A stretch of 35,858 bases of DNA from Methanocaldococcus sp. (GTDB lineage: Archaea; AGJL01; Methanococci; Methanococcales; Methanocaldococcaceae): positions 1 through 35,858 of the forward strand of contig NZ_JACCLX010000023.1 of NCBI RefSeq assembly GCF_024490875.1, given 5' to 3'. The stretch's first letter is position 1, and each line of letters begins with the position of its first letter. Shown here piece by piece: positions 3,984 to 35,784 of the stretch. The notes beneath the pieces are model-generated. The model did not search any database. It was not told the DNA's origin and worked only from the letters and a program-made list of their open reading frames with translations. A program made the translations under genes and the position numbers.

Positions 3984-4214
3984 GTTTAAAATCAGGCCCA
4001 AAGGGGATGGAAATATCGACAAACTTAAAACTAACTGGCAATATACTTTAAGTTTAAAATCAGGCCCAAAGGGGATGGAAATCCACAATATGCTATCTAT
4101 AACTAAAATAGTCATTTGACCGTTTAAAATCAGGCCCAAAGGGGATGGAAATATTCATTTTGAGTTGTTTAATGATGCTTTAATGGAGTTTAAAATCAGG
4201 CCCCAAAGGGGAAG
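3984..4214 (+). CRISPR. CRISPR array 1: three full repeats, one degenerate repeat, three spacers
   Basis: Three identical 31-nt repeats start at 3984, 4052 and 4122. They begin GTTTAAAATCAGGCCC and end GGGGATGGAAAT. A fourth copy at 4188 is intact for its first 24 bases but then departs from the consensus (GGGGAAGGCAA). Spacers are 37, 39 and 35 nt (4015-4051, 4083-4121, 4153-4187) and unlike each other. The ATGGAAAT end resembles the crRNA handle of other archaeal repeats, so I place the array on the plus strand with the degenerate repeat at its far end. CCC-AAA-GGGG inside the repeat gives a very short stem. No cas genes are in the window, so processing enzymes must be encoded elsewhere. 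The right end merges into the long repeat. Confidence 0.95.
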
Positions 4215-4555
4215 GCAAAAAGAGGCATTGCTTCTTAAAAGAAGCAATGTATCCCGGGTATCCCAATAGGGCGGAGCCCTATGGGTATAAAATCAGGCCC
4301 CAAAGGGGATAAAAGTATTTAAATTTTTTAATGGTATAAAATATTTATAAATTTCTATATTCACATCTTTTTTAAGAGTAATAACGAACCTCGGGAAAAT
4401 CTTGATCTGAATATTATAAAATCATATAAATAACAAAAAAATATTATAGTAATATGAAAAATTTTAAAATTATAATATTACTATAATAAAAATTTAAAAT
4501 TTTTTATGATTTGATATTAACAAATCCCGAGAGTAAATATTATTCATTATAAAAA
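4188..4555 (+). repeat. CRISPR-associated long repeat (LR), copy 1 of an inverted pair
   Basis: This stretch is repeated in reverse orientation at 35409-35784 with roughly 90 percent identity by eye. It includes the degenerate CRISPR repeat (4188), a double hairpin, a second CRISPR-like repeat (4286-4310) and about 240 bases of AT-rich sequence ending a few bases past the ilvD stop. Shared words include AAGAGTAATAACGAACC and GATTTGATATTAACAAATCC. The M. jannaschii genome paper described LR segments of about 400 bp adjoining short repeats, and this matches that element. A TATA-like AAATTTAAATAC on the minus strand (about 4315-4326) points toward the array. Confidence 0.93.
4225..4285. other. 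Double hairpin in spacer-like position within LR copy 1
   Basis: Two strong inverted repeats lie end to end. The first pairs CATTGCTTCTT (4226-4236) with AAGAAGCAATG (4239-4249). The second pairs CCC-A-ATAGGGC (4262-4272) with GCCCTATGGG (4276-4285), with a single bulged A. They occupy the 74 bases between two CRISPR-repeat-like sequences. The same pair is kept in LR copy 2. Confidence 0.85.
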
Positions 4556-4561
4556 TAGAAA

Positions 4562-6220
4562 TTAAATCCTTAATACAGCCCCTTCATCAGCTGATGTTAC
4601 AAGTTTAGCATATCTTGCTAAGTATCCTTTTTTAACTTTTGGTTCAGGTTTTTTCCATTTAGATAATCTTTCTTTAATCTCTTCATCCTCTAAATCTAAA
4701 TCTAATTTTTTGTTTATCATATCTATTTTAATTATATCTCCATCTTCCACTATTGCTATAGGTCCCCCAGCCATTGCTTCTGGAGAAACATGCCCAATAC
4801 AGGGGCCTCTACTTCCGCCACTAAACCTACCATCCGTAATTAACGCAACTGAATCATCTAACCCCATTCCACATATTGCTGAAGTTGGAGATAGCATCTC
4901 CCTCATCCCAGGCCCTCCTGCTGGACCCTCATATCTAATAACTACAACATCTCCTTTCTCTATTTCCCCATTTAATATTGCATCTACTGCTTCTTCTTCA
5001 CTATCAAATACTCTCGCAGGCCCTTCATGTTTGTACATCTTAGGATTTACAGCCCCAATTTTAACTACTGCTCCATTTGGTGCTAAACTTCCTTTTAATA
5101 TTCTTAAACCTGCTGTTTCATGGACTGGATTGTCTATTGGTCTTATAACATTATAATCAATATACTTAACCTCATTAATTATCTCTCCAATTGTCTTTCC
5201 ACTAACTGTTAAACATTCTTTTCTTATTTTCTCTTCTAAAACTTTTAATACAGCAGGAATTCCTCCCGCTCTATGTAAATCTATCATAAAGTGTTCTCCA
5301 CCAGGTCTTAAAGATGCAATATGAGGCACTTCATCACTCAACCTATCAAAGTCTTCCAATGTGATAAATCTTGGCTTTATTTCATTTGCAATTGCTGGGA
5401 TATGTAAGGTTGTGTTTGTTGAACCTCCCAAAGCTAAATCTACCAATATAGCATTTTCAAATGCCTCCTTAGTTAAAATCTTATCTGGAGTTATATTGTT
5501 TCTTACTAAATCAACTATTTTCATTCCAGATCTTTTTGCAATTCTTATTTTTTCTGCTGTATTTGCATGAGATGTAGCGCAATAAGGTAATGATAAACCC
5601 ATAGCTTCAGTTAAACAAGCCATTGTATTTGCTGTAAATAAACCCGCACAACTTCCAGCCCCCGGACAGGCAATATCTTCAATTTCTTTAAGTTCTTCCT
5701 CTGTAATTTTCCCAGCCGCACACGCTCCAACTCCTTCAAATACACTAATTAAATCATATTTCTTTCCTCTCAACTCTCCAGGAAACATTGGCCCTCCTGT
5801 AACAACTATAAATGGTAATCCAGTTCTTACAGCCCCCATTATCATTCCAGGAACAATTTTATCACAACTTGGTATTAAAACTAAGCCGTCAAATCCATGA
5901 GCCTTTGCCATACTCTCTACTGTGTCAGCAATAATTTCTCTTGAAGGTAAAGAATACTTCATCCCCTCATGACCCATAGCAATTCCATCACATATTGCCA
6001 TTGTGTTGAATTCAAAGGCAGTTCCTCCATTTGCATATATTCCTTTTTTTACAGCTTCAGCAATGTCTCTTAAATGTATATGTCCTGGAACAACTTCAGT
6101 AAAGCTATTAACAACTCCAATAAAAGGTTTTTCTAATTCTTCATCCGTGTATCCACAAGCCTTTAACAAACTTCTATTTGGAGCTCTTTTTAGCCCTTTT
6201 TTTACTCTATCACTTATCAT
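4562..6220 (-). CDS. ilvD: Dihydroxy-acid dehydratase
   Basis: IlvD dehydrates dihydroxy-isovalerate and dihydroxy-methylvalerate in valine and isoleucine synthesis. The 552-residue protein is full length. Cysteines for the iron-sulfur cluster are visible in FNTMAICDG (about 77), LIPSCDK (about 119) and CPGAGSCAG (about 185-191). The PGHIHLRD segment near residue 45 has Gly-His where plant-type 2Fe-2S enzymes have Cys-Asn, so this looks like the E. coli-like 4Fe-4S form. The frame opens at GTG 6229, but AAGGTGGAT there is the ribosome site for ATG 6220. The gene ends a few bases before the long repeat. leuD, another branched-chain gene, lies about 110 bases upstream on the same strand. Confidence 0.97.
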
Positions 6221-6329
6221 TTTATCCACCTTTAAAAAAACTTAAATGCTAAGCTTAATGCTATTAATGAAATTTAAAAACTAATTTAAAAAGAAAAAAT
6301 AATTTTGTTGAACTTTTATCCATTATTAT

Positions 6330-6836
6330 TTAACCTTCTACTTTCATCTTCTTCTTTAAGTAAGGCATTAATCCTCCTGCCTCTAAAATTTCCATCATAA
6401 ATTCTGGAAGTTTGTTTCCTTGTAGAACTTCTCCAGTAGTTAAGTTTTTGATCTCCCCAGTTTTTAAATTAACCTCTAAAATATCTCCTTCATTAACTTT
6501 CTCTGAAATTCCTTTACATTCAATTACAGGCAAACCTACATTAATAGCATTTCTATAAAATATTCTTGCAAAGCTTTCAGCAATAATACAGCTAATTCCA
6601 GCCCCTTTTAATCCTAATGGTGCATGCTCTCTACTTGAACCACAACCAAAGTTCTTTCCTCCAACAATTATATCTCCAGGTTTAACTTTTTTTGGAAAGT
6701 CAGGATCAACCCCTGTCATAACAAACTGTGCTAACTCCTCTGGCTTAGTATAAACTAAGTATCTTGCTGGTAATATAGCATCTGTATCTATGTTATCTCC
6801 AAACTTCCAAACTCTTCCTTTTATTATCTTTTCCAT
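6330..6836 (-). CDS. leuD: 3-isopropylmalate/citramalate isomerase small subunit
   Basis: The 168-residue protein is the swivelling small subunit of an aconitase-family isomerase, which works with an iron-sulfur large subunit (LeuC) not present here. FGDNIDTDAILPARYLVY (residues 12-29) and GGKNFGCGSSREHAP (about 58-72) are diagnostic. Methanogens have a close paralogue, homoaconitase small subunit HacB of coenzyme B synthesis. That paralogue carries YLRT in the substrate loop, whereas this one has YLVY at 26-29, so I call leucine/isoleucine LeuD. The neighbour ilvD supports this. The frame extends to GTG 6845, but AGGTGAG there forms the ribosome site and ATG 6836 is preferred. Confidence 0.93.
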   Translation of the reverse strand: MEKIIKGRVWKFGDNIDTDAILPARYLVYTKPEELAQFVMTGVDPDFPKKVKPGDIIVGGKNFGCGSSREHAPLGLKGAGISCIIAESFARIFYRNAINVGLPVIECKGISEKVNEGDILEVNLKTGEIKNLTTGEVLQGNKLPEFMMEILEAGGLMPYLKKKMKVEG

Positions 6837-6904
6837 TATTCTCACCTATATGTTTTTAAAAATAAAAAAGATTCGAAGTATAATAAATACTTTTATGATA
6901 TATA

Positions 6905-8122
6905 TTATAATTCCTTCAATAATTTCTTTAAAATTTCTATATCACATTCAATTTTTATTGGCTCTTCACTAGCCCTTATTGCGGCGTCAGGATCTTTCAA
7001 TCCATGTCCTGTTGTTATACAAACAATTCTTTCATCTTTATCAATAATTCCTTCTTCTAACAACCTCTTAAGTCCAGCAATTGAAGAGGCTGAAGCTGGT
7101 TCAACAAATATTCCCTCCTTTCTTGCTAATAATTTTTGTGCCTCTATAATCTCCTCATCAGTAACTGCCTCAGCATAGCCATTTGATGAATATATAGCAT
7201 CTAATGCCTTTGGGGCATTTACTGGGTTTCCAATTCTTATAGCAGTAGCAATTGTCTCTGGATTTTTGTATGGAACTATATCCTTTGCCCCTTTTCTAAA
7301 TGCTTCAACTATTGGCTTAGCTCCCTCTGCTTGAATACCTGTCATTTTTGGAAGTTCGTCAATAATTCCAGTCATTTCAAACTCTTTAAATCCTTTCCAT
7401 ATTGCTGAAATATTTCCAGCATTTCCTACGGGAACTATAACTCTATCTGGGACTTGCCAATTTAGTTGGTCGCAAATCTCAAATGCAATAGTTTTTTGCC
7501 CTTCCAATCTAAATGGATTTATTGAATTTAATAAATAAATTAATTTTTCTTTTGCTAACTGTTTAACCATATTTAAGGCATCATCAAAGTTTCCTTTAAT
7601 TTGTATAACTTTGGCTCCATAAAACATTGCCTGAGCTAATTTTCCTAATGCCACTTTTCCCTCTGGTAGTAAAACTATGCATTTTTTTCCACATCTTGCT
7701 GAATATGCAGATAAAGATGCAGATGTGTTTCCTGTTGATGCACAACCAACAACTTCAACTCCCAACTCGTTAGCTCTTGTAACTCCAACTGTCATACCTC
7801 TATCTTTAAAACTTCCAGTAGGATTAGCCCCCTCATTCTTTACATAGAGTTCTTTAACTCCCAACTCTTTCTCTAAATTTTTACATCTATATAGGGGAGT
7901 TCCTCCTTCACATAAACTTACAATTTTACTTTTATCTTTTACTGGTAAGTATTCTAAATATCTCCAAACACCAATTTCCCTTTCTCTAAATTTTTCTTTT
8001 GAAACTTTATCCTTTATTTCTTCATAATCATAAACAATTTCTAACAATCCACCACATTCACAAGTATAAACTATTTCATCCACATCGTAAGTTTTTCCAC
8101 ACTTAATGCATCTTTGTATCAT
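6905..8122 (-). CDS. thrC: Threonine synthase
   Basis: ThrC converts O-phosphohomoserine to threonine using pyridoxal phosphate. The 405-residue protein opens with a zinc-ribbon-like segment (Cys5, Cys8, Cys21, Cys23), typical of archaeal forms. It then shows GSFKDRGM with the PLP lysine at about 106, STGNTSAS near 130 and a glycine loop VPVGNAGNISA near 231. The C-terminal part keeps EPASASSIAGL and TTGHGLKD. ATG 8122 is preceded by GAGGTGAG at good spacing. A TATA box lies about 50 bases upstream. It is on the same strand as leuD and ilvD, with about 70 bases to leuD, so these amino acid genes may form one transcript. Confidence 0.97.
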   Translation of the reverse strand: MIQRCIKCGKTYDVDEIVYTCECGGLLEIVYDYEEIKDKVSKEKFREREIGVWRYLEYLPVKDKSKIVSLCEGGTPLYRCKNLEKELGVKELYVKNEGANPTGSFKDRGMTVGVTRANELGVEVVGCASTGNTSASLSAYSARCGKKCIVLLPEGKVALGKLAQAMFYGAKVIQIKGNFDDALNMVKQLAKEKLIYLLNSINPFRLEGQKTIAFEICDQLNWQVPDRVIVPVGNAGNISAIWKGFKEFEMTGIIDELPKMTGIQAEGAKPIVEAFRKGAKDIVPYKNPETIATAIRIGNPVNAPKALDAIYSSNGYAEAVTDEEIIEAQKLLARKEGIFVEPASASSIAGLKRLLEEGIIDKDERIVCITTGHGLKDPDAAIRASEEPIKIECDIEILKKLLKEL

Positions 8123-8167
8123 TATTACTCACCTCGTATAATTAAGATGATGTATTTCAGAAGATTA

Positions 8168-8178
8168 TTTATATAGTT
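8168..8178 (-). promoter_or_regulatory. TATA box for thrC
   Basis: On the minus strand CTATATAAATA lies about 48-56 bases before the thrC ATG. A start 25 bases downstream would give a leader of roughly 25 bases including the ribosome site. Confidence 0.6.
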
Positions 8179-8269
8179 ATTTATTGAATATTTGAAGTAT
8201 TAATTAAAGTAATGTTTAATTTAAGATTAACTTAAATTTAATTCTTGTAAAAGTATAGAGAGGGAGAAT

Positions 8270-9025
8270 GTGAAGATTGGAGTTTCAACTTGTATATTTT
8301 TAGATACTGATAAAAATTTAGAGGAATCCTTAAATATCTTAGAGAAAAAGGTTAAGTATGTTGAATTAGGTTGCGATGGAAATTTAAATATAATGTCAGA
8401 TAAAAATATCGAAATAACAAAATCATATAATTTAAGATATACTTTGCACTGTCCTATAACAGATCTAAATATATCATCATATAGAGAAAAAATAAGAAAA
8501 GTTAGTTTAGAGTTTATTAAAGATATTTTAAAGTGTGCAATAGATATTAACGCTAAATTAATCGTTTTACATCCGGGATATTCTGTTTTTAAAAGTGACT
8601 ACAAAAAATCTTTATCATCTTTAATAAAAAGTTTAAAGGAATTAAATAAAATTCAAGAAGAGTATGGGATACAGATAACTATTGAAAATATGCCCTCTTA
8701 TGATATGTTTATGTTTAGACATCCAGAAAAATCAATTATAGAAAATTTAGGAGAGTTAAAAATAACTTTTGATATAGGTCATTCTTTCTTAAATAATAAT
8801 ATCAAAAATTTTTTAGAAATCTCTGATTTAATTGCTCATATTCATATCCACGACAATAATGGAGTGTTTGACGAGCATCTATGTATTGGAAAAGGTAAAA
8901 TTAACTTTAATGATTTTAAGAAAGATTTAAAAAGAATTAACTGCATAAAAATGATTGAAATGCAAAAGAAAAGATTAAATGATTTAGATATATGCATACA
9001 AAATTTAAAAGAACTTTTAAAGTGA
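8270..9025 (+). CDS. TIM-barrel sugar isomerase/endonuclease IV-like protein
   Basis: The 251-residue protein fits the AP endonuclease 2/xylose isomerase-like barrel. Metal-ligand candidates appear in the usual order: LHCPITDLN, LHPGY, ITIENMP (Glu), FDIGHSF (Asp, His), HIHIHDNNG (three His), then FDEHLCIGKG and IEMQ (last Glu). The family includes DNA endonuclease IV and sugar or inosose isomerases, and the exact substrate is not clear. At this length it lacks nothing obvious. GTG 8270 is a true start here: GAGAGGGAG is well placed and no ATG is nearby. The cbiZ start follows six bases after its stop, so the two probably share a transcript, but a functional link to cobamide salvage is only inference. 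Confidence 0.85.
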   Translation: MKIGVSTCIFLDTDKNLEESLNILEKKVKYVELGCDGNLNIMSDKNIEITKSYNLRYTLHCPITDLNISSYREKIRKVSLEFIKDILKCAIDINAKLIVLHPGYSVFKSDYKKSLSSLIKSLKELNKIQEEYGIQITIENMPSYDMFMFRHPEKSIIENLGELKITFDIGHSFLNNNIKNFLEISDLIAHIHIHDNNGVFDEHLCIGKGKINFNDFKKDLKRINCIKMIEMQKKRLNDLDICIQNLKELLK

Positions 9026-9030
9026 TATAT

Positions 9031-9801
9031 ATGGAGATAGAAAATGTTTTGTCAATGGACGATTGGAAGGCATATAAAGTTCCTCATAATGTGGAAGTAG
9101 ATGGTTTAGTTGAAAGAACAAAAACTTTAATAATAGAATTTGAAAAGAGAAGAAGAGTTTTATCTACAAAAGAAGGATTTAAGGTAGTAAAATATGTTGG
9201 AAATCATTCAATTCCAGAAGTTTTTTGGGATAAAGTTCATCACTATAAAGATTATATAAGGAAAGTTTTAGAAACTATTGGAATAAAAAAAGAAGATATT
9301 GCTTTATTATCAACAGGGGCGAATATGGATAATTTAGCAGTTGCAAAAGAAGAATTTGATGAATTTTATGTAGTTGCTTTTACTACTGCTGGGGCAAAAT
9401 ATAATGCAATTAGATTGGGAGACGAAGAGGCAGATTATATAGAAAAAGATTTTAAAACTTACAAAATAGTAAATGGTAAGATATTTCCAAAAGAGAATAT
9501 AGGGACAGTTAATATTATTTTAATAACCAATGCAAATTTAACAGATGGAGCTATGGCAAGGGCAATAATAACCATTACAGAGGCAAAAACTAATGCATTC
9601 CAAGAATTGAATATTAGGAGTACTAAACATCCAGAATTATTGGCTACAGGAACAGGAACAGATAATATAATTGTCGTTAAAGGTTTTGGAAAAGGGGTAG
9701 ATTATACCGGTGGGCATACAAAGATGGGAGAGATGATAGCAAAAGTCGTTAAAAAGAGTGTTATTGAAGCTTTAATAAAGCAGGATAACATTAAAATTTA
9801 A
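9031..9801 (+). CDS. cbiZ: Adenosylcobinamide amidohydrolase
   Basis: CbiZ removes the aminopropanol side chain of adenosylcobinamide to give adenosylcobyric acid, letting archaea salvage corrinoids from outside. The 256-residue protein carries family signatures: LSTGANMDNLAVA near 96-108, FTTAGAKYNAIRLGD near 118-132, TNANLTDGAMARAIITITEAK near 170-190 and ATGTGTDNIIVVKG near 207-220. The frame opens at ATG 8992 inside the preceding gene, but AGTGAT at 9021-9026 and ATG 9031 give the normal arrangement. It is convergent with apgM with only two bases between stops. CobY, the next kind of enzyme needed for nucleotide loop assembly, is also in this window at 30840-31445. Confidence 0.88.
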   Translation: MEIENVLSMDDWKAYKVPHNVEVDGLVERTKTLIIEFEKRRRVLSTKEGFKVVKYVGNHSIPEVFWDKVHHYKDYIRKVLETIGIKKEDIALLSTGANMDNLAVAKEEFDEFYVVAFTTAGAKYNAIRLGDEEADYIEKDFKTYKIVNGKIFPKENIGTVNIILITNANLTDGAMARAIITITEAKTNAFQELNIRSTKHPELLATGTGTDNIIVVKGFGKGVDYTGGHTKMGEMIAKVVKKSVIEALIKQDNIKI

Positions 9802-9803
9802 CT

Positions 9804-11033
9804 TTAAGCTCCAAACTTTTCATTTCTTCCAGTTAAATCTAACAATATCTTCATTACATGCTCTCCTCTAATCCAATGCAATGCACCTTTTGCACAGCTA
9901 AATTCATTGAATTCTTTAACATCATCGGTTCTAACACTTTTGCCCCAAATAACTATTGGAACTGGATCGGCTGAGTGATCTTTCATCTCTATAGGTGTGG
10001 AGTGATCCCCAGTTAATACAAAATAAACCTCATCTTTATTAATATGCTCTAATACATAAGATAGCATTTTGTCTATTTTTTCTATAACTTCTTTTTTAAG
10101 ATTGTAATTACCATCATGACTTGCCTCATCAGCTCCTTTAACATTTACCAAAACAAAATCATATTCTTTTAATGCCTCTACTAATGCCTTAGCCTTACCC
10201 ATAAAGTTAGTGTTAGGAGTTCCATTGGCTCCCTCAACTTCTATACAATCTAAGCCTATCATTCTCGCAATTCCTTTTATAAGACCAGTTCCGCAGATAC
10301 AGGCTCCTCTCATATTATATTTTTCAGAAAACTTCTCTATTTTTGGAACTATTCCAGCACCTCTTGGTAGTATTATATTAGCAGGAGGTAATCCTTTTTT
10401 TCTTCTTTCTATGTTTATTGGATGATTATTTAATCTTTCATAAACAATTTTCAATAACTTATTTAAAATTTCCGCTGTTTTTTTAGCCTCTTCAGAATCA
10501 TCCAATGGTTTTATTTCATTAACTTTAACTCCCACTTTGTGAGGATCTCCGTCACTTACCTTATATGATAATCCTTCTCCTCTTAGAACTAAAGCCCCTC
10601 TATATCCATTAGATGATTTAAAAATAACTTTAACTCCATCAATTTCTAAGCCATCAATCTCCTTTTCTAATATCTTAGCCTCTTCTGGACCAATTCTTCC
10701 AGCCCTTCTATCTAAGACAACAAAATTTTCATCAACAGTAGCAAAATTACATCTAAAAGCAACATCTCCCTCTTTTAAATTTAACCCCACTCCATATGCC
10801 TCCAAAGGTCCTCTTCCAGTATATACTTTATAAGGATTATATCCCAAAATAGATAAGTGAGCAGTATCACTTCCAGGTCTTATTCCAATATCAATAGCGT
10901 TCATCAAACCACATATTCCTTCCTTAGCCATCCTATCCATTGTTGGAGTTTTAGCCTCCTTTAAAGGAGTTAATCCTTTTTCATTTGGTCTATCTCCAAG
11001 TCCATCTATAATAAATATTACGCACTTCTTCAT
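9804..11033 (-). CDS. apgM: 2,3-bisphosphoglycerate-independent phosphoglycerate mutase, archaeal type
   Basis: ApgM interconverts 3- and 2-phosphoglycerate in lower glycolysis and gluconeogenesis. The 409-residue protein belongs to the alkaline phosphatase superfamily. It has metal-binding Asp10 in IIDGLGDRP, the catalytic serine at about 55 in RPGSDTAHLSILGY, the core KGADEASHDGN and a C-terminal TGDHSTP metal site. It is shorter than the bacterial iPGM, as expected for the archaeal branch. The start has GAGGGAGAA just upstream. It is the last gene of a five-gene minus-strand run with the glycogen-degrading enzymes, ten bases after the GH57 gene, which ties polymer breakdown to glycolysis. 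Confidence 0.95.
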   Translation of the reverse strand: MKKCVIFIIDGLGDRPNEKGLTPLKEAKTPTMDRMAKEGICGLMNAIDIGIRPGSDTAHLSILGYNPYKVYTGRGPLEAYGVGLNLKEGDVAFRCNFATVDENFVVLDRRAGRIGPEEAKILEKEIDGLEIDGVKVIFKSSNGYRGALVLRGEGLSYKVSDGDPHKVGVKVNEIKPLDDSEEAKKTAEILNKLLKIVYERLNNHPINIERRKKGLPPANIILPRGAGIVPKIEKFSEKYNMRGACICGTGLIKGIARMIGLDCIEVEGANGTPNTNFMGKAKALVEALKEYDFVLVNVKGADEASHDGNYNLKKEVIEKIDKMLSYVLEHINKDEVYFVLTGDHSTPIEMKDHSADPVPIVIWGKSVRTDDVKEFNEFSCAKGALHWIRGEHVMKILLDLTGRNEKFGA

Positions 11034-11043
11034 TATTTCTCCC

Positions 11044-12399
11044 TCACACTATTATAAATTTATCGTTTTCATCTTTAGGCTCTTCATTCTTTTCAATACA
11101 TTCTTTGCTATTGTTATCATTTATGTTTTTTATTTCTATATCTTTATTTACAATTAATTTTTCTTTACTATCATAATCACTTCTATTATTTAACTTTTTC
11201 ATCTCATCTTTTATATAGTATTCAAAGTCATACAAAATGTTTAAATAAGAGGCATAGGCATCAAATGGTGAGTCAAAATGGCTAAAATACATATGAACAT
11301 CTATATCTCCAAAGCCCTTGGTGCATTGATAATAGAAGTTGTCACTTGTCTGCAAAATTTTATATATTTTATAGATTTCTTCAAATTTTTCTGATTTTTT
11401 TAATTTATCTTTATTTTCTTTTATAAATTCTCCAATTTCTTTCAATTTTTCAAAGGATATTTTTTGCATTCTATTCCCTAACCACGCACTAACATCTCTT
11501 TCAGTGTCTGCCCAAGATATTGTAGCAAATTCATGAACATAAATTTCTCCTCTTGGTTTTAATTTTTTAACGACTTCATTTACATTAACAACCTCTAAAT
11601 GTTCATATTTTGAAATTTCAATAGGTAAGTATCTTAAAAATTCAAATATTCCAGATTCTTTCCACTGATGCTCTCCAAAAGTTTCATAATCCATATAGAT
11701 ATTTATAACCTCTCCGGGCGTTAAAGCCAACCATAAAGCATATTTATCGGCTGTTAGTGGATACTGATCCCAATCCCTTGCTGAAAATCTAAAACCAATG
11801 TCATCGCTCAACCTATAATTTCTCAACAAGATTTTCATACCATCAGGAGATTGATACAAATAATTTGGACTTCTCCAACTTAATATTTTCTCAGTACCTT
11901 CTGTAAATATTGCCTCAAAACCTAAATCCTTAGATATTTTTGCAATTTTATTGTTGTAGATTAATTCAGTATTTCTAAATATTTTTGGCTTTACTCCAAA
12001 AACATCTTTATACAACTTTCTATGTAATTCTATATCTTCTATAAACTCCTCCTCATTTTCATACAAACTTGATAAAGAGTGATGATATGTCTCAGCAATC
12101 AATTCAACATTTCCTGTTTTAACTAAATCTTTAAATAAATCTAAAACATACTCGTTAAATTCTAAACACTGCTCTATAAAACAACCAGTAATAGAATAAT
12201 TTACTTTAAAGTCATATTCATCAATAAGTTCTAAAATTAACTCATTTGCAGGAATGTAGCATTTATTTGCTACTTTATTAAAAATTTCTTTATTTAGATT
12301 TGTATCGACATATCTTTCCCATAAATTATTTCCTTTTTTATTAATATTTTTATTTAATCTGTGTGGCTGATGAACTTCAAAAGTGAATGTTATTAACAT
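11044..12399 (-). CDS. Glycoside hydrolase family 57 (alpha-amylase-like)
   Basis: The 451-residue protein has the GH57 motif series: EVHQPHRL at about 8-15, AETYHHS near 102, FRNTELIYN near 141-149 (candidate nucleophile Glu), and MDYETFGEHQW near 236-246 (candidate acid/base Asp). GH57 enzymes cut or rearrange alpha-1,4-glucans in thermophiles, and here glycogen is the likely substrate. No signal peptide is present, so it acts in the cytoplasm. The last 45 or so residues are low-complexity and rich in Asn, Lys, Glu and Asp, unlike the rest. ATG 12399 has AGATGAT just upstream; ATG 12408 is the alternative. The spacing to the GH15 gene upstream is 26 bases. Confidence 0.92.
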   Translation of the reverse strand: MLITFTFEVHQPHRLNKNINKKGNNLWERYVDTNLNKEIFNKVANKCYIPANELILELIDEYDFKVNYSITGCFIEQCLEFNEYVLDLFKDLVKTGNVELIAETYHHSLSSLYENEEEFIEDIELHRKLYKDVFGVKPKIFRNTELIYNNKIAKISKDLGFEAIFTEGTEKILSWRSPNYLYQSPDGMKILLRNYRLSDDIGFRFSARDWDQYPLTADKYALWLALTPGEVINIYMDYETFGEHQWKESGIFEFLRYLPIEISKYEHLEVVNVNEVVKKLKPRGEIYVHEFATISWADTERDVSAWLGNRMQKISFEKLKEIGEFIKENKDKLKKSEKFEEIYKIYKILQTSDNFYYQCTKGFGDIDVHMYFSHFDSPFDAYASYLNILYDFEYYIKDEMKKLNNRSDYDSKEKLIVNKDIEIKNINDNNSKECIEKNEEPKDENDKFIIV

Positions 12400-12425
12400 A
12401 TCTATCATCTCAAAAATATTTTATA

Positions 12426-14267: not shown

Positions 14268-14286
14268 ATAGATCACTATATTTTGG

Positions 14287-14499: not shown

Positions 14500-14504
14500 A
14501 TTAA

Positions 14505-15674: not shown

Positions 15675-15726
15675 TATCTCACTAAAATCTTATTATTAGA
15701 TATTAGACAAATTAATGGCAGTAATG

Positions 15727-15737: not shown

Positions 15738-15824
15738 TATAATTTAAAGATTAATATTGAATAAGTTTTACTAATAAATAGTATAAGTTTTAAATTGAAT
15801 AATATAAAAAGGTTGTGATAAAGT

Positions 15825-24963: not shown

Positions 24964-25038
24964 TTTTTATTTTTGTTTAATATTTTATTATTTGGTAGTA
25001 GTATATTACAAAAATCCAATATATAAATTTTGTTCTTT

Positions 25039-28164: not shown

Positions 28165-28179
28165 TAAAATCCCTCAAAT

Positions 28180-28788
28180 TTATTTATATGCAGATATTGC
28201 TACAAAGCCACCTTTCCCATAACCTTCTTTAATCTCATATTTTCTATATTCATCTTCAAAAAGTGTCTGAGTTGCCTTTATATTTTTAAATTTTAGTTCT
28301 TTTAAGATCTCTATAACTTCTTTTGCAGATAAAAATTTTGCATCTTTGTAAAATTTACTTTTTTTCTTTTTTTCCTCATAAATTTTTCCTAAATAACTAT
28401 CTTTATCTATGATTCCTATTACAATTTTCCCTCCCTTTTTTAGAACTCTCTTAGCCTCCTCTAAAACTTTTTTAGGGTCTTCTACAAACTCCAAAACAGT
28501 ATTTATTAATACAAAGTCAAATTCTTCGTCATTAAAAGGTAAATTCTCTCCACTACTAATAATTACTTTTATTCCTCTTTTTTCAGCTATTTTAGCCATT
28601 TCTTTTGATATATCGACTCCTATCTTTATATTAAAGGGTTTTGCAAATCTTCCAGTGCCTACTCCAATTTCTAAACCTTTACCTTTTGGTATATGCCTCT
28701 TTAAGCACTCAATTTCTGCATTGTAAATTAAAGGGTTTTCATCAAACCATCTATCGTATTCCTCAGCAAATTTATCAAATACATTCAT
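28180..28788 (-). CDS. Class I SAM-dependent methyltransferase
   Basis: A 202-residue Rossmann-fold methyltransferase of the UbiE/SmtA type. Motif I is KGLEIGVGTGRFA (about 38-50), followed by an acidic residue in GVDISKEMAKIAEKRG, DEEFDFVLINTVLEFVEDP near 87-105 (motif IV and the post-IV helix) and LKKGGKIVIGIID (motif VI). The substrate is not evident. ATG 28788 overlaps the end of the LysR-like gene by 14 bases, so the two are translationally linked. The ribosome site is weak (TTAGGT), consistent with coupling. It is followed closely by hel308. Confidence 0.88.
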   Translation of the reverse strand: MNVFDKFAEEYDRWFDENPLIYNAEIECLKRHIPKGKGLEIGVGTGRFAKPFNIKIGVDISKEMAKIAEKRGIKVIISSGENLPFNDEEFDFVLINTVLEFVEDPKKVLEEAKRVLKKGGKIVIGIIDKDSYLGKIYEEKKKKSKFYKDAKFLSAKEVIEILKELKFKNIKATQTLFEDEYRKYEIKEGYGKGGFVAISAYK

Positions 28789-29632
28789 ACTTAAAACCTA
28801 ATTTTTTTATTTTTTTAATGTAATCTTTATCTATTTTTATCTCCCTATTTAAACTTATAAAGTTTATCGCATGTATAGTTTTTTCATAGAATTTAGGATA
28901 TTCTATATTCAAATTATCATCAACATATTTTAATAAACTTTCGTTTAAAAATAAACTGTAACCTTCATTAACCAACTCTATTGCTTTAAAAGGATTTTTA
29001 GTCCTAATTTTTACTTTAAAATTTATTCCTTCTTTCTTTAAGATATTATAAACTATTCTATGAGAACTATATCTAACTCCTACTAAATTTTTGTAGTCAA
29101 ACTCTTTTTTACTAACCATCACAAAGTGGTCATAGACAACTAAGAATATGTTAATATCAAAATTTCCAATCTCTGACTTCAAAAATCTTTCATCATTTAA
29201 TCTAAAAACCCAGTAACTGTCATCAACTCCCAATATATCTACAAAGTTTAATTTCAATAGTTTTAAGGCATTGTCAAAAGATGTTATTATTGGATTTTCA
29301 AATAATATTTTAGCAATTTCCCCACTAACAAATCCTGAAACTGTAAAAAATTTATTATTTAATCTTTTTTTACTAAATTCATAAATTTCCAAAATTTTTA
29401 ATCCATCCTCAGTTAAAATAGTCCCATTTGGAGTAGAGTAATATAGTTTAACTCCCAATTTCTTTTCTAACCTTTTCAACTGAATATTAAAAGAGGATGG
29501 ATTTATATTTAACAATTTAGACGCTTCATTCTGTGATTTAGTTTTTTGCAAAGATTTTAAAAGTTTTATTTGGTTTGGAGTTATTACCTTCCCTTTATAT
29601 TCTACAACAACATCTGCTTTAAAATCTTTCAT
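28775..29632 (-). CDS. LysR/ModE-type HTH transcriptional regulator
   Basis: The 285-residue protein has an N-terminal winged helix-turn-helix at about 18-80 (QIKLLKSLQKTKSQNEASKL, then LNINPSSFNIQLKRLEKKLG and a wing ending TEDGLKIL), the pattern of LysR and ModE regulators. Residues 95-285 form a separate domain that could be a reduced ligand-binding domain, with phrases like FDNALKLLKLNFVDILGVDD and LVNEGYSLFLNESLLKYV. It is close to the expected LysR length but the effector region is divergent. It starts three bases after the dapF stop, and the ribosome site lies in the dapF end. Targets are unknown; regulation of the adjacent biosynthetic genes is inference. Confidence 0.82.
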   Translation of the reverse strand: MKDFKADVVVEYKGKVITPNQIKLLKSLQKTKSQNEASKLLNINPSSFNIQLKRLEKKLGVKLYYSTPNGTILTEDGLKILEIYEFSKKRLNNKFFTVSGFVSGEIAKILFENPIITSFDNALKLLKLNFVDILGVDDSYWVFRLNDERFLKSEIGNFDINIFLVVYDHFVMVSKKEFDYKNLVGVRYSSHRIVYNILKKEGINFKVKIRTKNPFKAIELVNEGYSLFLNESLLKYVDDNLNIEYPKFYEKTIHAINFISLNREIKIDKDYIKKIKKLGFKYECI

Positions 29633-29635
29633 AAT

Positions 29636-30523
29636 TTACCATCCAATATTTATTAATTTGGCATCATATACAATTACAGCATCTCCAATCATATAAACTC
29701 CATCGTTTTTAATCTCAATCTCCAATTTACCCCCATCTAAATGTGCTAAAACCTTATTCTTTGTTTTACCAAGTTTGTGAGATATAATAACTGAAGCCGT
29801 AGTTCCTGTTCCACACGCTGTTGTGTATCCAGATCCTCTTTCCCAAGTAACGATTCTAATCTCGTTAGGATTTAAAACCTCTACAAAATGGACATTAATT
29901 CTTTCTGGAAATACAGGATGATTTTCAATTTCTTTTCCAATAACATTTAAATATTTCTTAGCAAAATTTAAGTCAATGTTATTATCTTCAACAAATATAA
30001 CTGCGTGAGGATTTCCTACATTAACAACACTCAATTTAACTTTTGGTAGGTAAGGATTTTTTAATTTTAACTCTCCATCTATAAATTCATCATCATCTTT
30101 ATAACCTTCAATTTTCATTGGAATGTCTTTTAATTTAAATTTTGGAACTCCCATATAAACTTTAACTTTTTTAACCTCATCATCTTCAATTTCCATTTCA
30201 CAGATTCTTAAACCTCCCTTTGTCTCTACTTTTAAAGGATTTTTTTTAATAATTCTCTCATAAACATACTTTGAAAAGCATCTTATACCATTTCCACACA
30301 TCTCAGCCTCAGAGCCATCACTGTTAAAAATTCTAAATCTTACATCGTATTCATCAGATGTAGGTTTTTGTATGAATATAACTCCATCTCCTCCTACGGA
30401 AAAACCTCTCCTACATATTTTCCTTGAAAATTGCGATTTATCATTTTCTTTAACTTTCTCTCCGTAAAATTCATTAATAACTATATAATCATTTCCAAGA
30501 GCATGCATCTTTGTAAATTCCAT
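29636..30523 (-). CDS. dapF: Diaminopimelate epimerase
   Basis: DapF converts LL- to meso-diaminopimelate on the way to lysine. The 295-residue protein keeps both catalytic cysteines: Cys76 in SEAEMCGNGIRC and Cys237 in GSGYTTACGTGTTAS. N-terminal FTKMHALGNDYIV and GGDGVIF are family signatures. It is slightly longer than bacterial forms, with a Lys/Glu-rich middle. Methanogens lack peptidoglycan, so lysine is the expected end product. The frame opens at TTG 30538, but GGCGGTG at 30530-30536 points to ATG 30523. It lies 25 bases after the PRC-barrel gene in the same operon. Confidence 0.96.
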   Translation of the reverse strand: MEFTKMHALGNDYIVINEFYGEKVKENDKSQFSRKICRRGFSVGGDGVIFIQKPTSDEYDVRFRIFNSDGSEAEMCGNGIRCFSKYVYERIIKKNPLKVETKGGLRICEMEIEDDEVKKVKVYMGVPKFKLKDIPMKIEGYKDDDEFIDGELKLKNPYLPKVKLSVVNVGNPHAVIFVEDNNIDLNFAKKYLNVIGKEIENHPVFPERINVHFVEVLNPNEIRIVTWERGSGYTTACGTGTTASVIISHKLGKTKNKVLAHLDGGKLEIEIKNDGVYMIGDAVIVYDAKLINIGW

Positions 30524-30548
30524 ATTATACACCGCCAAAAATAGATTT

Positions 30549-30830
30549 TTAACGAGTAGAGGGCTTTATAGTTACTTTATTTAAGTTCTTTTCATCTATT
30601 ACAAAAACATCTTTAACCGCAGTTACGAGTCTATAAGGAATTAAAACACACTTTCCCTCTTCTACATTTATTGGACTATTTTCAGAAGGTTCAATTTCTA
30701 AAGAAACCAATTTTCCTATTTTTTCATCGAATATAATATCTCTAACTACTCCAATAATACTTCCTAAATTTCCTATAACTTTTCTACCAAATAACAATTT
30801 AGCAGGTATCTTATCTCTTCTAATTTCCAT
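30549..30830 (-). CDS. PRC-barrel domain protein
   Basis: A 93-residue single-domain protein. The PRC-barrel pattern is clear: IPAKLLFGRKVIGNLGSIIGVVRDI, then a beta-strand with FDEKIGKLVSLEIEP, and IPYRLVTAVKDVFVIDE. PRC-barrels are small beta domains found in RNA processing (RimM), photosynthetic reaction centres and archaeal cell-division proteins (CdpB). Size and lack of any other domain fit the archaeal stand-alone group, but I cannot say which role applies. GGGAGATT precedes ATG 30830. It sits nine bases after cobY and 25 before dapF. Confidence 0.88.
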   Translation of the reverse strand: MEIRRDKIPAKLLFGRKVIGNLGSIIGVVRDIIFDEKIGKLVSLEIEPSENSPINVEEGKCVLIPYRLVTAVKDVFVIDEKNLNKVTIKPSTR

Positions 30831-30839
30831 AATCTCCCT

Positions 30840-31445
30840 TTATTTATACTTTTTATTTTTCAAAAAATTTTCCGCAAATTTTAAATCGTCAGGAGTATTG
30901 ACATTAATTATTAACTCATCAATTACCATAATCTCCTCTTTTTGATATCCACTCTTTGGAGACACTATATTTATTCCTACTGGAATTAAGCCATTAAATT
31001 CAATTGTTGCATTCACATGTTTAATATATTTATTTTTAGGGATCATAACAGTTAAAGATTCAATTTCTGGATTTTTAGATTTAATACTGTAAAAGTAATC
31101 TACTATACTATTAATAATTTTCGATGATAAATTTACTAAATCAGAACTTACTACTAAAAATGGCTTTGAAAAATATTTTATGCACTCATTTAAATCTTCT
31201 ATATAGCCATTACCAGAGGTTTCAATAACTTTAATATTTTTATAATCTTTATAATTTGAGATAATAAATTTTTTTGTATTTTTAGTATTTAGCGATGTGG
31301 CAATATATATTTTATTTATTTTATCTGACTCTAATAAAGGTTGGATTACATAAGATATGAGTGGTTTATCCTTTATTTTAATTAATGGTTTCTCTACATA
31401 TCCCATTCTTGATCCTCTACCCCCTGCCATAATTAGAGCATCCAT
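30840..31445 (-). CDS. cobY: GTP:adenosylcobinamide-phosphate guanylyltransferase
   Basis: CobY is the archaeal non-orthologous replacement for bacterial CobU. It transfers GMP to adenosylcobinamide phosphate during coenzyme B12 nucleotide loop assembly but has no kinase activity. The 201-residue nucleotidyltransferase fold starts MDALIMAGGRGSRMG (signature loop 6-15), then EKPLIKIKDKPLISYV (conserved Lys), ETSGNGYIEDLN, FLVVSSDLVN (metal Asp) and PVGINIVSPKSGYQKEE. Length and C-terminal NVNTPDDLKFAENF match M. jannaschii CobY (MJ1117, from memory). AAGTGGATT precedes ATG 31445. It follows tldD by 27 bases. Confidence 0.92.
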   Translation of the reverse strand: MDALIMAGGRGSRMGYVEKPLIKIKDKPLISYVIQPLLESDKINKIYIATSLNTKNTKKFIISNYKDYKNIKVIETSGNGYIEDLNECIKYFSKPFLVVSSDLVNLSSKIINSIVDYFYSIKSKNPEIESLTVMIPKNKYIKHVNATIEFNGLIPVGINIVSPKSGYQKEEIMVIDELIINVNTPDDLKFAENFLKNKKYK

Positions 31446-31472
31446 TTTAATCCACTTTATTTGTTTATTATA

Positions 31473-32837
31473 TTAAGAGAGTATAGCAATAGTTCTTATA
31501 AAACCTCCTCCATCACCTACTGGAACACTCTGTCCATATTTTCCACAGTAACCAACGCTTAGTTTAAAATCTTTTGTAACGGCATCTACCTTAAATAATA
31601 TATCTAAAATTTCTCCACTTAGTCCAGCATCTTTTAAAACTTTGGTTAATTCTCCATTTTCAATTAAATATGCTTCAACTGCACTAAACTGAAATAATCC
31701 TTTACCAGTATCAACTTGCCCTCCTCTTGAACCTTTTAAAAATATTCCCTCTTTTGTATCCTCTAAGAGTTCTTCAAATGACCAATCTCCTGGTTTTATA
31801 TAAGTATTACTCATTCTTACAATTGGCTTATTTAATCCCTCTGATCTTCCATTTCCTGTTAATTCAGCATTCATTCTTCCAGCGGTTTCTCTTGAATGTA
31901 AATATGTTTTTAAAATTCCATTTTCAATAATAGCTGTCTTTTTTCCTTCAACTCCTTCATCATCATATTTATAAGAACCAAAGGCATCTTTAACCGTAGC
32001 GTCATCTATAACTGTTACATACTCACTTCCAACTCTCTTTCCTAACTTATCTTTAAATACACTATCGTTTTGTAAAACTAAATCAGCCTCTGAAGCATGT
32101 CCAACAGCTTCATGTATAAATACTCCTGCTAACTCAGGGTCTAAAATCACTTTAAATTTACCTTTTGGACAAGGTTTTGCTTTAAGTAATCTTAAAGATC
32201 TATTTTTTGCTTCAATAGATAAATTCAAATAATTATCTTTTATTTTTTCAAATCCAAAGCCACCAGTTCTCTCCGCTCCATATTGTAAGTTTCCATTCTC
32301 TTTGGCAACGCAATTCATATACATTATGCATCTTGTTATTTCTCCTTCAATTCTTGAACCTTCGCTATTTAAAAATATTTTTTTACCCAATACATCAGAA
32401 TAACTTACAGAAATACTTTTAATTTTTTTGTCCATCATATTTTTGTAAGCATCTATTATTATATCCTTCTTTTCATCAATATCTACTTTTACGGGATTTA
32501 TTTTTCCAATCATTTGGTAATTATCTACTATTGCCTTATAATCTTTTAGAGATACTTCTTTTTCTGAATATTCATTTGAAAGTTTAGCCATTTTGTATGC
32601 CTTATTTATTAAACTCTCAATTTCTTTTTCATTTATAATATTTGAGGTAGCAAATCCCCAACCATTTTTATATAAAATCCTAACAGCAACTCCTTGCCCT
32701 AATCCAGAAGAAATTTCTTCTATTTTTCCATCCTTTAATGTTATAGTATTTGATTCCTTAACATTAATTCTTAAATCTGCATAATCTCCTATCTCCAAGA
32801 GTTTTTCTAATTTTTCTATATTAATATTGTTGATCAT
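31473..32837 (-). CDS. tldD: TldD-family metalloprotease
   Basis: TldD works with TldE (PmbA) as a heterodimeric zinc peptidase that trims unfolded or modified peptides. The 454-residue protein has the zinc motif HEAVGH (242-247) in GVFIHEAVGHASEADLV, an N-terminal domain ending near AERTGGFGFE and conserved C-terminal pieces DDEGVEGKKT, YLHSRETAGRM and GSRGGQVDTGKGLFQF. TldE carries no metal site and is not found in this window. GGTGAG just upstream of ATG 32837 sets the start. It heads the minus-strand operon that includes cobY and dapF, and is divergent from the membrane-anchored protein gene. Confidence 0.93.
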   Translation of the reverse strand: MINNINIEKLEKLLEIGDYADLRINVKESNTITLKDGKIEEISSGLGQGVAVRILYKNGWGFATSNIINEKEIESLINKAYKMAKLSNEYSEKEVSLKDYKAIVDNYQMIGKINPVKVDIDEKKDIIIDAYKNMMDKKIKSISVSYSDVLGKKIFLNSEGSRIEGEITRCIMYMNCVAKENGNLQYGAERTGGFGFEKIKDNYLNLSIEAKNRSLRLLKAKPCPKGKFKVILDPELAGVFIHEAVGHASEADLVLQNDSVFKDKLGKRVGSEYVTVIDDATVKDAFGSYKYDDEGVEGKKTAIIENGILKTYLHSRETAGRMNAELTGNGRSEGLNKPIVRMSNTYIKPGDWSFEELLEDTKEGIFLKGSRGGQVDTGKGLFQFSAVEAYLIENGELTKVLKDAGLSGEILDILFKVDAVTKDFKLSVGYCGKYGQSVPVGDGGGFIRTIAILS

Positions 32838-32908
32838 AAACTCACCATAGAATTTTATATTCTTGTTTGTTTATTAATATTTATTATAGTTTTTAAAATG
32901 GTGAGATT

Positions 32909-33556
32909 ATGAAAAAATTAAAAGAATTTATATTATTCATATTGGTAAATGTCCTTCCAATTGTTATTATTGGATGGTATTTGTATGAAAATATTGGAGG
33001 AGCAAACTCTTTAAATGAAGTTATAGAAGACTCTCCATTTAAAGAATTTATATATATTGATCACGATGTTATTATGGAGGATAATATAAATAACATAAAT
33101 AAAATTTATAAGCCTTTTTTAATATTTATTAATGGAATTTATATTAGTCGCGATGGTAATGCAGTTGGGATAAAAATGCCCTTTGCATTTATGTTTAAAT
33201 ATATTAAAATTGACAATTGTTCTTATTATAATGGCTGTATTATAAAGGGTAATGCTAATTTAGGGAAAGCAACGCCAAATGATTTAACAGTTTTAATTCC
33301 TCAAAACTTTAAAGACATTGTTATTTATAGTAAAGATAGCATTATAGCCGGGGTAATTACAAATAACGAAACTGTATATGTGTGGGCTTTTAGAAAGAAA
33401 GGAAATATAACTGCAAAAACAATAAAATTATACTTAGAAAATGTAAAAAAACATAATCCAAATTTAATTGAATATAAAGTTATTGATTTTAAAGATAAAT
33501 TTTGTGTATATCTTAAATATAGAGGGCATTATTTAGAATTAAATAAATTAACATAA
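32909..33556 (+). CDS. Hypothetical protein with N-terminal membrane anchor
   Basis: I do not recognise this 215-residue protein. An N-terminal hydrophobic helix of about 22 residues (FILFILVNVLPIVIIGWYLY, after LysLys) acts as a signal anchor. The rest is presumably outside or facing the membrane. It is beta-rich with Ile- and Asn-rich strands, for example IDNCSYYNGCIIKGNANLG with a Cys pair near 106-112, IVIYSKDSIIAGVITNNETV, then a helix with VKKHNPNL. The start has GGTGAG four bases before ATG 32909. It is followed after ten bases by hemD, so the two are probably co-transcribed, but nothing here suggests a role in tetrapyrrole synthesis. Confidence 0.7.
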   Translation: MKKLKEFILFILVNVLPIVIIGWYLYENIGGANSLNEVIEDSPFKEFIYIDHDVIMEDNINNINKIYKPFLIFINGIYISRDGNAVGIKMPFAFMFKYIKIDNCSYYNGCIIKGNANLGKATPNDLTVLIPQNFKDIVIYSKDSIIAGVITNNETVYVWAFRKKGNITAKTIKLYLENVKKHNPNLIEYKVIDFKDKFCVYLKYRGHYLELNKLT

Positions 33557-33566
33557 ATGGGATAAA

Positions 33567-34283
33567 ATGAAAGTTGTTATTACAAGACCTAAGGAAAGAT
33601 CTGAGGTATTTGCTAAACTATTAAAAAAAGAAGGTTTTAAGCCAATATTATTTCCTACTTTGGAGATAGTTTATAACAAAGATGTTAATGTTGATTTAAA
33701 TAAATATGATTGGATTATCTTCACATCTCCGAGTGGCGTTATTGGATTATACAACATATTGGACGATAGAAAAAAAGATAGGGTTAAAGATAAAAAAATC
33801 GCTGTCATTGGAGAAAAGACAGCAAAAACTTTTAAAAAATATTTTGGTAAATTCCCAGATATAATTCCAAAAGAATACACTGCTGAAAAATTATTGGAAG
33901 AATTAAAAAAAGTTATTAATGGAAATGAAAAATTTTTAATTCCTACAACACCATCAACCAGAGACATTTTAAAAAATAATTTAAATGCAGATTTATTGTT
34001 TGTTTATAACTCTGTTGAACCAAAAAATTTAAAAGAAAAGATTGAAAAATTAAAAAAAGAATTAAAAGATGAAAAATTTATTTTAACATTTACAAGTGGA
34101 TTAACTGCTAAAAACTTTTTTAAATATGTGGATAACGAATTTTCCAAGATAATAGAAAAGAATTATATTGTAGCAATAGGTCCAATAACTGGAAAAGTTA
34201 TTGAAGAATTTGGGTTTAAACCTTTACTGCCTAAAATATACACTATTGAAGGAATTATAGAAGTTATAAAAAATATTAAATAA
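33567..34283 (+). CDS. hemD: Uroporphyrinogen-III synthase
   Basis: HemD closes hydroxymethylbilane with inversion of ring D, the branch point to siroheme, F430 and cobamides. The 238-residue, two-domain protein has low sequence conservation typical of the family: MKVVITRPKERSEVFAKLL at the N terminus, DWIIFTSPSGVIGLY near 48-62, KIAVIGEKTAKTFKKYFG near 76-93, ILTFTSGLTAKNFF near 172 and VAIGPITGKVIEEFGFKP near 208. This TSP/TSG pair with two GP/GE hinges is diagnostic. In a methanogen the product feeds factor F430 and B12, and CobY and CbiZ are in the same window. GGGAT lies four bases before ATG 33567. Confidence 0.93.
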   Translation: MKVVITRPKERSEVFAKLLKKEGFKPILFPTLEIVYNKDVNVDLNKYDWIIFTSPSGVIGLYNILDDRKKDRVKDKKIAVIGEKTAKTFKKYFGKFPDIIPKEYTAEKLLEELKKVINGNEKFLIPTTPSTRDILKNNLNADLLFVYNSVEPKNLKEKIEKLKKELKDEKFILTFTSGLTAKNFFKYVDNEFSKIIEKNYIVAIGPITGKVIEEFGFKPLLPKIYTIEGIIEVIKNIK

Positions 34284-34312
34284 ATTACAAAGAGTGTGGT
34301 GGGGTTTTATAG

Positions 34313-35389
34313 ATGATAAATGTAAATGATAGGAATTTAATAAAAAAAGCTATTGAAAAAATAAACAAACTGTCTGAAAAAGTTGATAAATTGAAAATAA
34401 TGCATGTATGTGGAAGTCATGAACATACAATATGTAAATATGGAATTAGAGACATTCTTCCTGAAAATATTACTGTAATTCCTGGCCCAGGCTGTCCTGT
34501 ATGCGTTACTACACAAAAAGAGATTGATACAGCAATATATTTGGCTGATAATGGATATGTTATTACAACTCTTGGAGATATGTATAGAGTTCCGGGAAGC
34601 GAAAAATCGTTGATGGAAAAACAGGCAGAGGGTTGTGATGTTAGAATTGTATATAGCATTAGTGAAGCTGTAAAAATGGCTAAGAAAGAAAGAGATAAAA
34701 AATTTGTTTTTGTGGCAATTGGCTTTGAAACAACTGCCCCAACAACAGGAGCAGAGTTAATTAGTTTAAAAGATAAAGATATTGATAACTTTTTTATTTT
34801 AAACTATCATAGGCAAACCCCTCCAATTATGGAATTTTTGCTGAGTGAAAAAACATACATAGATGCATTTATTTGCCCCGGACATGTTTCAACGATAACT
34901 GGATTAAAGCCATATTATAAGCCATGCGAAAAATATAAGGTTCCAATGGTCGTTGCTGGATTTGAACCAATTGATGTATTAATGGCTATAATTATGATAT
35001 TAAGACAAATAATAACTGGAAATATAAAGGTTGAAAATGAATATATAAGGGCTGTAAAGCCAGAAGGGAATGTATTGGCTCAAAAGATAATAAACGAAGT
35101 TTTTGAAAGTATAGATGTGCCTTGGAGAGGGTTTCCAATTATAAAAAATGGTGGATTTGGATTAAGGGAGAAATATAAAAAGTTTGACATTTATGAGCAT
35201 GAAGATATTCCAGAGATTGAAGAAAAAATACCAAAAGGTTGTATATGTGATAAGATATTAAGAGGCGAAAAACTACCAACAGATTGTCCATTATTTGGAA
35301 CAGTTTGCAATCCACTAAATCCAGTAGGTAGTTGCATGGTTTCAGATGAAGGAACTTGTAGAATATTTTATAAGTATAGAAAAATATAA
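34313..35389 (+). CDS. hypD: Hydrogenase maturation protein HypD
   Basis: HypD, with HypC, assembles the Fe(CN)2CO unit of NiFe hydrogenases. The 358-residue protein has HVCGSHEHT (Cys33, 31-39), GPGCPVCVT (Cys61, Cys64), CPGHVS near 193 and AGFEPIDVLM near 219. It ends with a Cys-rich C terminus (CICDKILRG, TDCPLFGTVCNP, GSCMVSDEGTC) that binds a 4Fe-4S cluster. All key cysteines appear present. GGTGGGG is upstream of ATG 34313. It is the third gene of a plus-strand run and ends about 20 bases before long repeat copy 2. Confidence 0.96.
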   Translation: MINVNDRNLIKKAIEKINKLSEKVDKLKIMHVCGSHEHTICKYGIRDILPENITVIPGPGCPVCVTTQKEIDTAIYLADNGYVITTLGDMYRVPGSEKSLMEKQAEGCDVRIVYSISEAVKMAKKERDKKFVFVAIGFETTAPTTGAELISLKDKDIDNFFILNYHRQTPPIMEFLLSEKTYIDAFICPGHVSTITGLKPYYKPCEKYKVPMVVAGFEPIDVLMAIIMILRQIITGNIKVENEYIRAVKPEGNVLAQKIINEVFESIDVPWRGFPIIKNGGFGLREKYKKFDIYEHEDIPEIEEKIPKGCICDKILRGEKLPTDCPLFGTVCNPLNPVGSCMVSDEGTCRIFYKYRKI

Positions 35390-35408
35390 ATATTTATATT
35401 CTTAAAAT

Positions 35409-35784
35409 TTTTTATAATGAATAATACTTACTCTTGGGATTTGTTAATATCAAATCATAAAAAATTTTAAATTTTTATTATAATAATATTATAATTTTAA
35501 AATTTTTCATATTGTTATAATATTTTTTTGATATTTTTCTTATTTTGTAATATTCAGATCAAGAATTTCTCGGGGTTCGTTATTACTCTTAAAAAAGATG
35601 TGAATATATAAATCTATAAATATTTTATATTATTAAAAAAATAAAGAATTTAAATACTTTTATCCCCTTTGGGGCGTGATTATATACCCATAGGGCTCCG
35701 CCCTATTGGGATACCCGGGATGCATTGCTTCTTAAAAGAAGCAATGCCTCTTTTTGCCTTTCCCTTTGGGGCCTGATTTTAAAC
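35409..35784 (-). repeat. CRISPR-associated long repeat (LR), copy 2 of an inverted pair
   Basis: The reverse complement of this stretch matches 4188-4555 with roughly 90 percent identity by eye and the same internal order: AT-rich part, CRISPR-like partial repeat (35661-35685), double hairpin, degenerate repeat (35759-35784). Most differences are single substitutions and short indels in A/T runs. It starts some 20 bases past the hypD stop, just as copy 1 starts right after ilvD. A TATA-like AATTTAAATAC (35647-35657) points toward the hairpins. Confidence 0.93.
35687..35747. other. Double hairpin in spacer-like position within LR copy 2
   Basis: The first hairpin pairs CCC-ATAGGGC (35687-35696) with GCCCTAT-T-GGG (35700-35710). 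The second pairs GCATTGCTTCTT (35722-35733) with AAGAAGCAATGC (35736-35747), a perfect 12-bp stem. In copy 1 the outermost pair of the second stem is G and T, the only change in the arms. Confidence 0.85.

Follow-up and report, generated by a model that had tools for sequence, protein, structure and literature searches.

The window analysed here, 35,858 nucleotides of DNA and the whole of contig C23 in a draft Methanocaldococcus sp. genome (G000; 44 contigs, 1.468 Mb), contains a 31-kb block enclosed by two long copies of one element in opposite orientation. This arrangement raises the question of whether such copies have rearranged the chromosome and whether they can invert the DNA between them. 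A sequence-only reading of the window had taken the copies for CRISPR long repeats (LR) and had proposed that the block is invertible, its flipping exchanging spacers between two arrays. Most work on CRISPR arrays treats them as immune memory.

Genomes compared

Gene order was compared with that of Methanocaldococcus sp. SG1 (LR792634.1; G005), which is approximately 95% identical to G000. The comparison used 1.22 of the 1.479 Mb of SG1, the last 259 kb being left out, and one-to-one anchoring aligned approximately 985 kb. The other relatives were G006, which like SG1 is assembled in 1-2 contigs, and G004, a complete genome of three contigs whose gene order fits Methanocaldococcus jannaschii, with which it is presumably identical. 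In the draft of G000, a handful of repeated sequences resembling insertion-sequence ends is common to many contig ends, many contigs terminate in CRISPR or insertion-sequence-like repeats, and the transposase-adapter sequence AGATGTGTATAAGAGACAG is present at some contig ends. Positions 1-148 of the window match several dispersed sites in relatives, and the same sequence starts or finishes many contigs of the draft; it looks like an insertion-sequence end that interrupted assembly. No Rfam match and no tRNA were found in the window.

Architecture of the CRISPR units

The two copies form the sole long inverted pair within the window (Table 1). On alignment they are 92% identical over the element, with a longest shared exact run of 47 bp (4482-4528), and they enclose the genes from ilvD (stop at 4562) to hypD (stop at 35389), their ends lying 6 and 19 bases from the respective stops. 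The geometry described in the sequence-only reading, i.e., inverted copies of approximately 370 bp starting 6-20 bases past the gene stops, was thus confirmed. The genome contains approximately 39 trailer copies, among which the two in the window are mutual best matches (93%); because of these related copies and the reciprocal match, the inverted pair is not a product of chance.

Comparison of all CRISPR elements in G000 gave a standard unit order of a leader-like element, a few repeats and spacers, a degenerate repeat, a double-hairpin element (HP), and a trailer (TR) that opens with a second degenerate repeat. The units are mini-arrays with 1-4 spacers, dispersed in the genome. The repeats are 31 bp and the spacers 35-39 bp in length, the spacers of the left array are unique in the genome, and a leader on one side is conserved across the arrays of G000 and SG1. 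Approximately 25 full or partial copies of the leader-like element are present in G000 and 8 in the compared part of SG1 (1.22 of 1.479 Mb), and partial matches occur at 8 sites in G004. Since intact repeats lie beside the leader-like element and decayed ones beside the trailer, and since the leader-like element contains a TATA-like stretch, each unit probably runs from the leader side (3599-3976 in the left unit) to a distal trailer.

Placed in this order, the paired element appears to be the distal end of a CRISPR array, consisting of the degenerate repeat, HP and TR. Its identification as an LR of the M. jannaschii type was rejected because G004 matches the leader-like element and, at many sites, HP, whereas a search for TR in that genome gave no match; the counterpart of such an LR would be the leader-like element of the left unit. 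HP also occurs alone, outside CRISPR units, at many sites in most Methanocaldococcus genomes searched, including some that have no TR, and for this reason it seems that a dispersed palindromic element became incorporated into the end of the array. Tandem trailer pairs spaced approximately 320 bp are frequent (C6:137-669, C22:146-674, C36:12-543, C27:34267-34852, and others), some of which lie at contig ends with no array beside them in the assembly. Segments of contigs C27 (435-34852, approximately 33 kb) and C26 (1905-56254, approximately 54 kb) are likewise enclosed by inverted trailers.

On the right the window, and with it the contig, breaks off within the right array. Its last 131 bp match the end of contig C6 exactly, and this overlap carries a spacer that is absent elsewhere in the genome, which indicates that C23 joins C6 and that the right unit is a complete array with one spacer, whose leader and leader-side neighbours lie on C6. 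Both arrays are located outside the trailer pair. A crossover between the trailers would therefore leave both arrays in place and exchange only the trailer-side neighbours, and the proposed swapping of spacers would not follow.

Table 1. Features of the window and re-paired array flanks (kb values are positions in SG1)
Feature	Position or contig	Strand	Basis or remark
Leader-like element, left CRISPR unit	3599..3976	+	378 bp; related to matches in G004
Left array: four repeats (last degenerate), three spacers (4015-4051, 4083-4121, 4153-4187)	3984..4218	+	Repeat search, sequence
Left paired element (LR of the sequence-only reading): degenerate repeat, HP, TR	4188..4555	+	Inverted-repeat search, genome search
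HP, double-hairpin element flanked by degenerate repeats	4216..4284	+	Genome and genus search
TR, trailer; outer end 1-6 bases from ilvD stop	about 4285..4560	+	Genome comparison
Block between repeats, ilvD-hypD	4562..35389		Mosaic relative to SG1 and G006
SG1 segment B	4569-9807		Comparison with SG1, G006
SG1 segment C	9804-20131		Comparison with SG1, G006
SG1 segment D	20128-20815		Comparison with SG1, G006
SG1 segment E	20827-22872		Comparison with SG1, G006
SG1 segment F	22872-31462		Comparison with SG1, G006
SG1 segment G	31486-35394		Comparison with SG1, G006
Right paired element: TR (35409-35687), HP (35688-35756), degenerate repeat	35409..35784	-	Inverted-repeat search, genome comparison
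Right array: single spacer (35785-35823) and leader-proximal repeat	35785..35858	-	Overlap with contig C6
Trailer flank of SG1 array a (64-66 kb) with leader flank of array e (318 kb)	C41		Contig spanning unit
Leader flank of SG1 array a with 9.37-kb site	C15
Trailer flank of SG1 array b (137 kb) with 407-kb site	C21
Leader flank of SG1 array f (822 kb) with hypD	C6 plus C23
Leader flank of SG1 array c (258 kb) with 1,188-kb site	C41 plus C3		79-bp overlap; weaker alternative C37

Gene order in the 31-kb block

Six SG1 segments make up the block as a mosaic, and the comparisons with both SG1 and G006 place its joints near 9804, 20131, 20827, 22872, and 31470. The genes of the block are of the conserved housekeeping type, and in relatives they lie scattered. 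As a unit, it was found in neither orientation in SG1, G006, or G004, and the assembly holds a single orientation; the proposed invertible block thus has a flipped copy in none of these relatives. The 9804 joint and the adjacency of segments C and E are kept in G004, and because the arrangement of G000 at these points is common to G004, SG1 and G006 appear to carry the derived order there. No CRISPR element was observed at the inner joints of the block in G000, and only the joint at 22872 corresponds to a CRISPR unit of SG1 (891 kb). The paired element as the cause of the whole scrambled block was therefore rejected, and with it the suggestion that the breaks between the gene groups are linked to LR.

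Those groups had been assigned to separate M. jannaschii loci (about MJ1633-1636, MJ1276-1277, MJ1603-1613, MJ1117-1124, and MJ0993-0996). The assignment is broadly right in that G004 scatters them, yet G004 holds 8271-21489 of the window as one run, minus gene D (20140-20727), and the list had omitted two other separate pieces, thrC (6905-8122) and the gene at 21607-22872. A large Hel308-like helicase ORF at 25039-28164 contains an in-frame insertion that, judged by eye, reads like an intein with a homing-endonuclease domain.

The two ends of the block have different histories in the relatives. In SG1, G006, and G004, ilvD adjoins a CRISPR unit whose leader side is directed toward the gene, whereas in G000 the trailer side is; on this ground, a single inversion through the trailer pair of the window was rejected as the source of the left junction. 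No CRISPR element lies beside hypD in SG1, G006, or G004, and the joining of hypD to a CRISPR unit consequently looks recent.

Breakpoints and array flanks

The comparison of G000 with SG1 gave 121 synteny breakpoints over the aligned sequence, which is a very high number at approximately 95% identity. Ten intervals were testable, i.e., contained a leader, repeat, or trailer and had both flanks anchored. All 10 of these CRISPR/TR intervals are at breakpoints, compared with 115 of 1176 other gene boundaries (9.8%; 13% when the gaps are at least 100 bp), so that breakpoints coincide with CRISPR loci above chance (P of approximately 1e-10 to 2e-9, with the intervals treated as independent). None of the 93 collinear intervals contains a CRISPR element, and insertion of the units into otherwise collinear DNA was rejected for this reason. 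The expectation that breakpoints fall at CRISPR elements thus held for every testable interval but not for the breakpoints as a whole: 111 of the 121 lack a CRISPR element in G000. A minority of the breakpoints is attributable to CRISPR, and because of these 111, another process would have to shuffle most of the genome. At many breakpoints the blocks meet with a gap of 0-10 bp, and G000 has no repeat there. Convergent gene pairs are enriched at non-CRISPR breakpoints (26 of 87, versus 15% of all gene pairs); this bias was read as selection against the splitting of operons and was set aside as a clue to mechanism.

The eight SG1 arrays have 15 mappable flanks, 11 of which are CRISPR-adjacent in G000 as well (base rate, 1.9%). 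Every resolved flank pair has a new partner in G000, and no pair is conserved; the evidence for these re-paired flanks (Table 1) comes from contigs running across CRISPR units and from overlaps between contigs, and its main caveat is the draft state of the assembly. The SG1 sites at 9.1 and 749.9 kb, whose sides are parted in G000, carry hairpin-plus-repeat relics. SG1 and G006, too, have different neighbours at two SG1 units (891 and 928 kb): two flanks that are 30 kb apart in SG1 are contiguous in G006, and the 28-kb segment between them is located elsewhere in G006, between CRISPR elements. Approximately half of the G000 units, including that at hypD, have flanks without CRISPR in SG1, and gain or loss of units is therefore also needed. 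From the G000 draft and 1.22 of the 1.479 Mb of SG1, re-paired flanks were recovered and a clean two-ended inversion was not reconstructed.

Homogenization of leaders and trailers

The mean identity of the leaders is 96.2% within SG1, 87.5% within G000, and 85.7% between the two sets, and the SG1 leaders form one clade (support, 100/100); most flanking genes are approximately 95% identical between the two genomes. The mean identity of the trailers is 81.5% within G000 and 68.8% between G000 and SG1. SG1 has two trailers, separated by 38 kb and inverted relative to each other, whose identity over 301 bp is 100%. These values indicate that leaders and trailers are homogenized within a genome, the copies exchanging sequence. 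With the 10 intervals at breakpoints and the re-paired flanks, this concerted evolution upholds the view of the sequence-only reading that CRISPR-linked repeats serve as substrates of recombination.

Origin of the junctions

We consider it probable that the paired element is the tail of dispersed mini-CRISPR units and that recombination between such units joined the present neighbours at the two block ends. Homologous recombination between the units would have produced both junctions, and a crossover that pairs the inverted trailers could reverse the 31-kb block, as a possible event rather than a demonstrated or regulated switch. We infer the use of the RadA pathway, the succession of events, and the inversion potential of the pair. 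Counting against this explanation are the CRISPR-free breakpoints, the CRISPR-free SG1 flanks of about half of the units, the longest exact match of only 47 bp in the pair, and the reversed unit at ilvD in SG1, G006, and G004, which is beyond any single trailer-trailer crossover.

Some of the same observations would be expected if the CRISPR units were not causal, and insertion sequences, other repeats, or end joining shuffled the genome while units accumulated or survived at tolerant junctions. The 111 breakpoints without CRISPR and the few insertion-sequence-like repeats shared by many contig ends agree with such a process, as does the difference between approximately 25 leader copies in G000 and 8 in the compared SG1 sequence, according to which units have multiplied or been lost. 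We nevertheless judge it unlikely, given that 11 of 15 SG1 array flanks are CRISPR-adjacent yet re-paired, which fits exchange via pre-existing units, and that no unit lies within an otherwise collinear interval, so that simple insertion is not seen. It is still less probable that a short-read assembler linked the wrong flanks across similar units, which would make the re-pairing, and even the orientation of the pair, false. The 44 contigs, the adapter sequence at some of their ends, and the many ends in CRISPR or insertion-sequence repeats would allow for such errors; however, the leader and trailer copies of G000 differ by 7-20%, normally enough to separate them, the C6-C23 join has a unique spacer, the window and G004 agree at joints that lack CRISPR (9804 and C-E), and SG1 and G006, assembled in 1-2 contigs, likewise show differences around CRISPR units. 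That the block is a true invertible cassette, flipping often within a culture by way of its two trailers, is very improbable. Long inverted repeats that are mutual best matches, and the identical inverted trailer pair of SG1, are what such a cassette would present, but no recombinase was recognized by eye among the translated ORFs of at least 150 amino acids in the window, the enclosed genes are housekeeping genes scattered in relatives, the approximately 39 comparable trailers leave the pair with nothing special, and the one assembly has a single orientation.

Recombination between dispersed units, the explanation preferred here, means that conserved CRISPR flanks act as repeated homology, marking one part of a very rapid turnover of gene order and probably driving it. 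The re-paired flanks offer defined junctions accessible to PCR or long-read sequencing. More tentatively, the trailer-bearing units might constitute a long-homology network for chromosome rearrangement, in which approximately 25 mini-arrays accompany the very fast shuffling and flanks, possibly also spacer sets, are recombined between loci.

Comparison with known systems

Inverted multicopy repeats such as rRNA operons and insertion sequences can give inversions by homologous recombination, and their copies are homogenized by gene conversion. The units described here resemble them in having inverted, homogenized copies that could give inversions, and differ in the nature of the repeats, which are CRISPR units, and in the identity of the copies, which within G000 is only approximately 80-93%. 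The multicopy LR/SR elements of M. jannaschii, the CRISPR loci of that genome, are similar in that short repeats of a related kind and a related leader-like element recur at many sites of the chromosome, and the hairpin is shared across the genus; the difference lies in the paired HP plus TR at the opposite array end, TR being unmatched in G004. A literature search found no study on gene order in Methanocaldococcus with CRISPR.

In the Thermotogales, CRISPR loci are associated with large inversions (DeBoy et al. 2006, J Bacteriol 188:2364, as summarized in PMC5052741). The two cases are alike in that the ends of inversions or rearrangements between closely related thermophiles fall at CRISPR loci. 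The present case differs in that a conserved trailer beyond the array is involved, that there are approximately 25 mini-arrays, that array flanks are shown to be re-paired, and that inversion of the 31-kb block itself is a possibility. The case belongs to the Thermotogales kind, with the conserved trailer and the re-pairing of flanks added.
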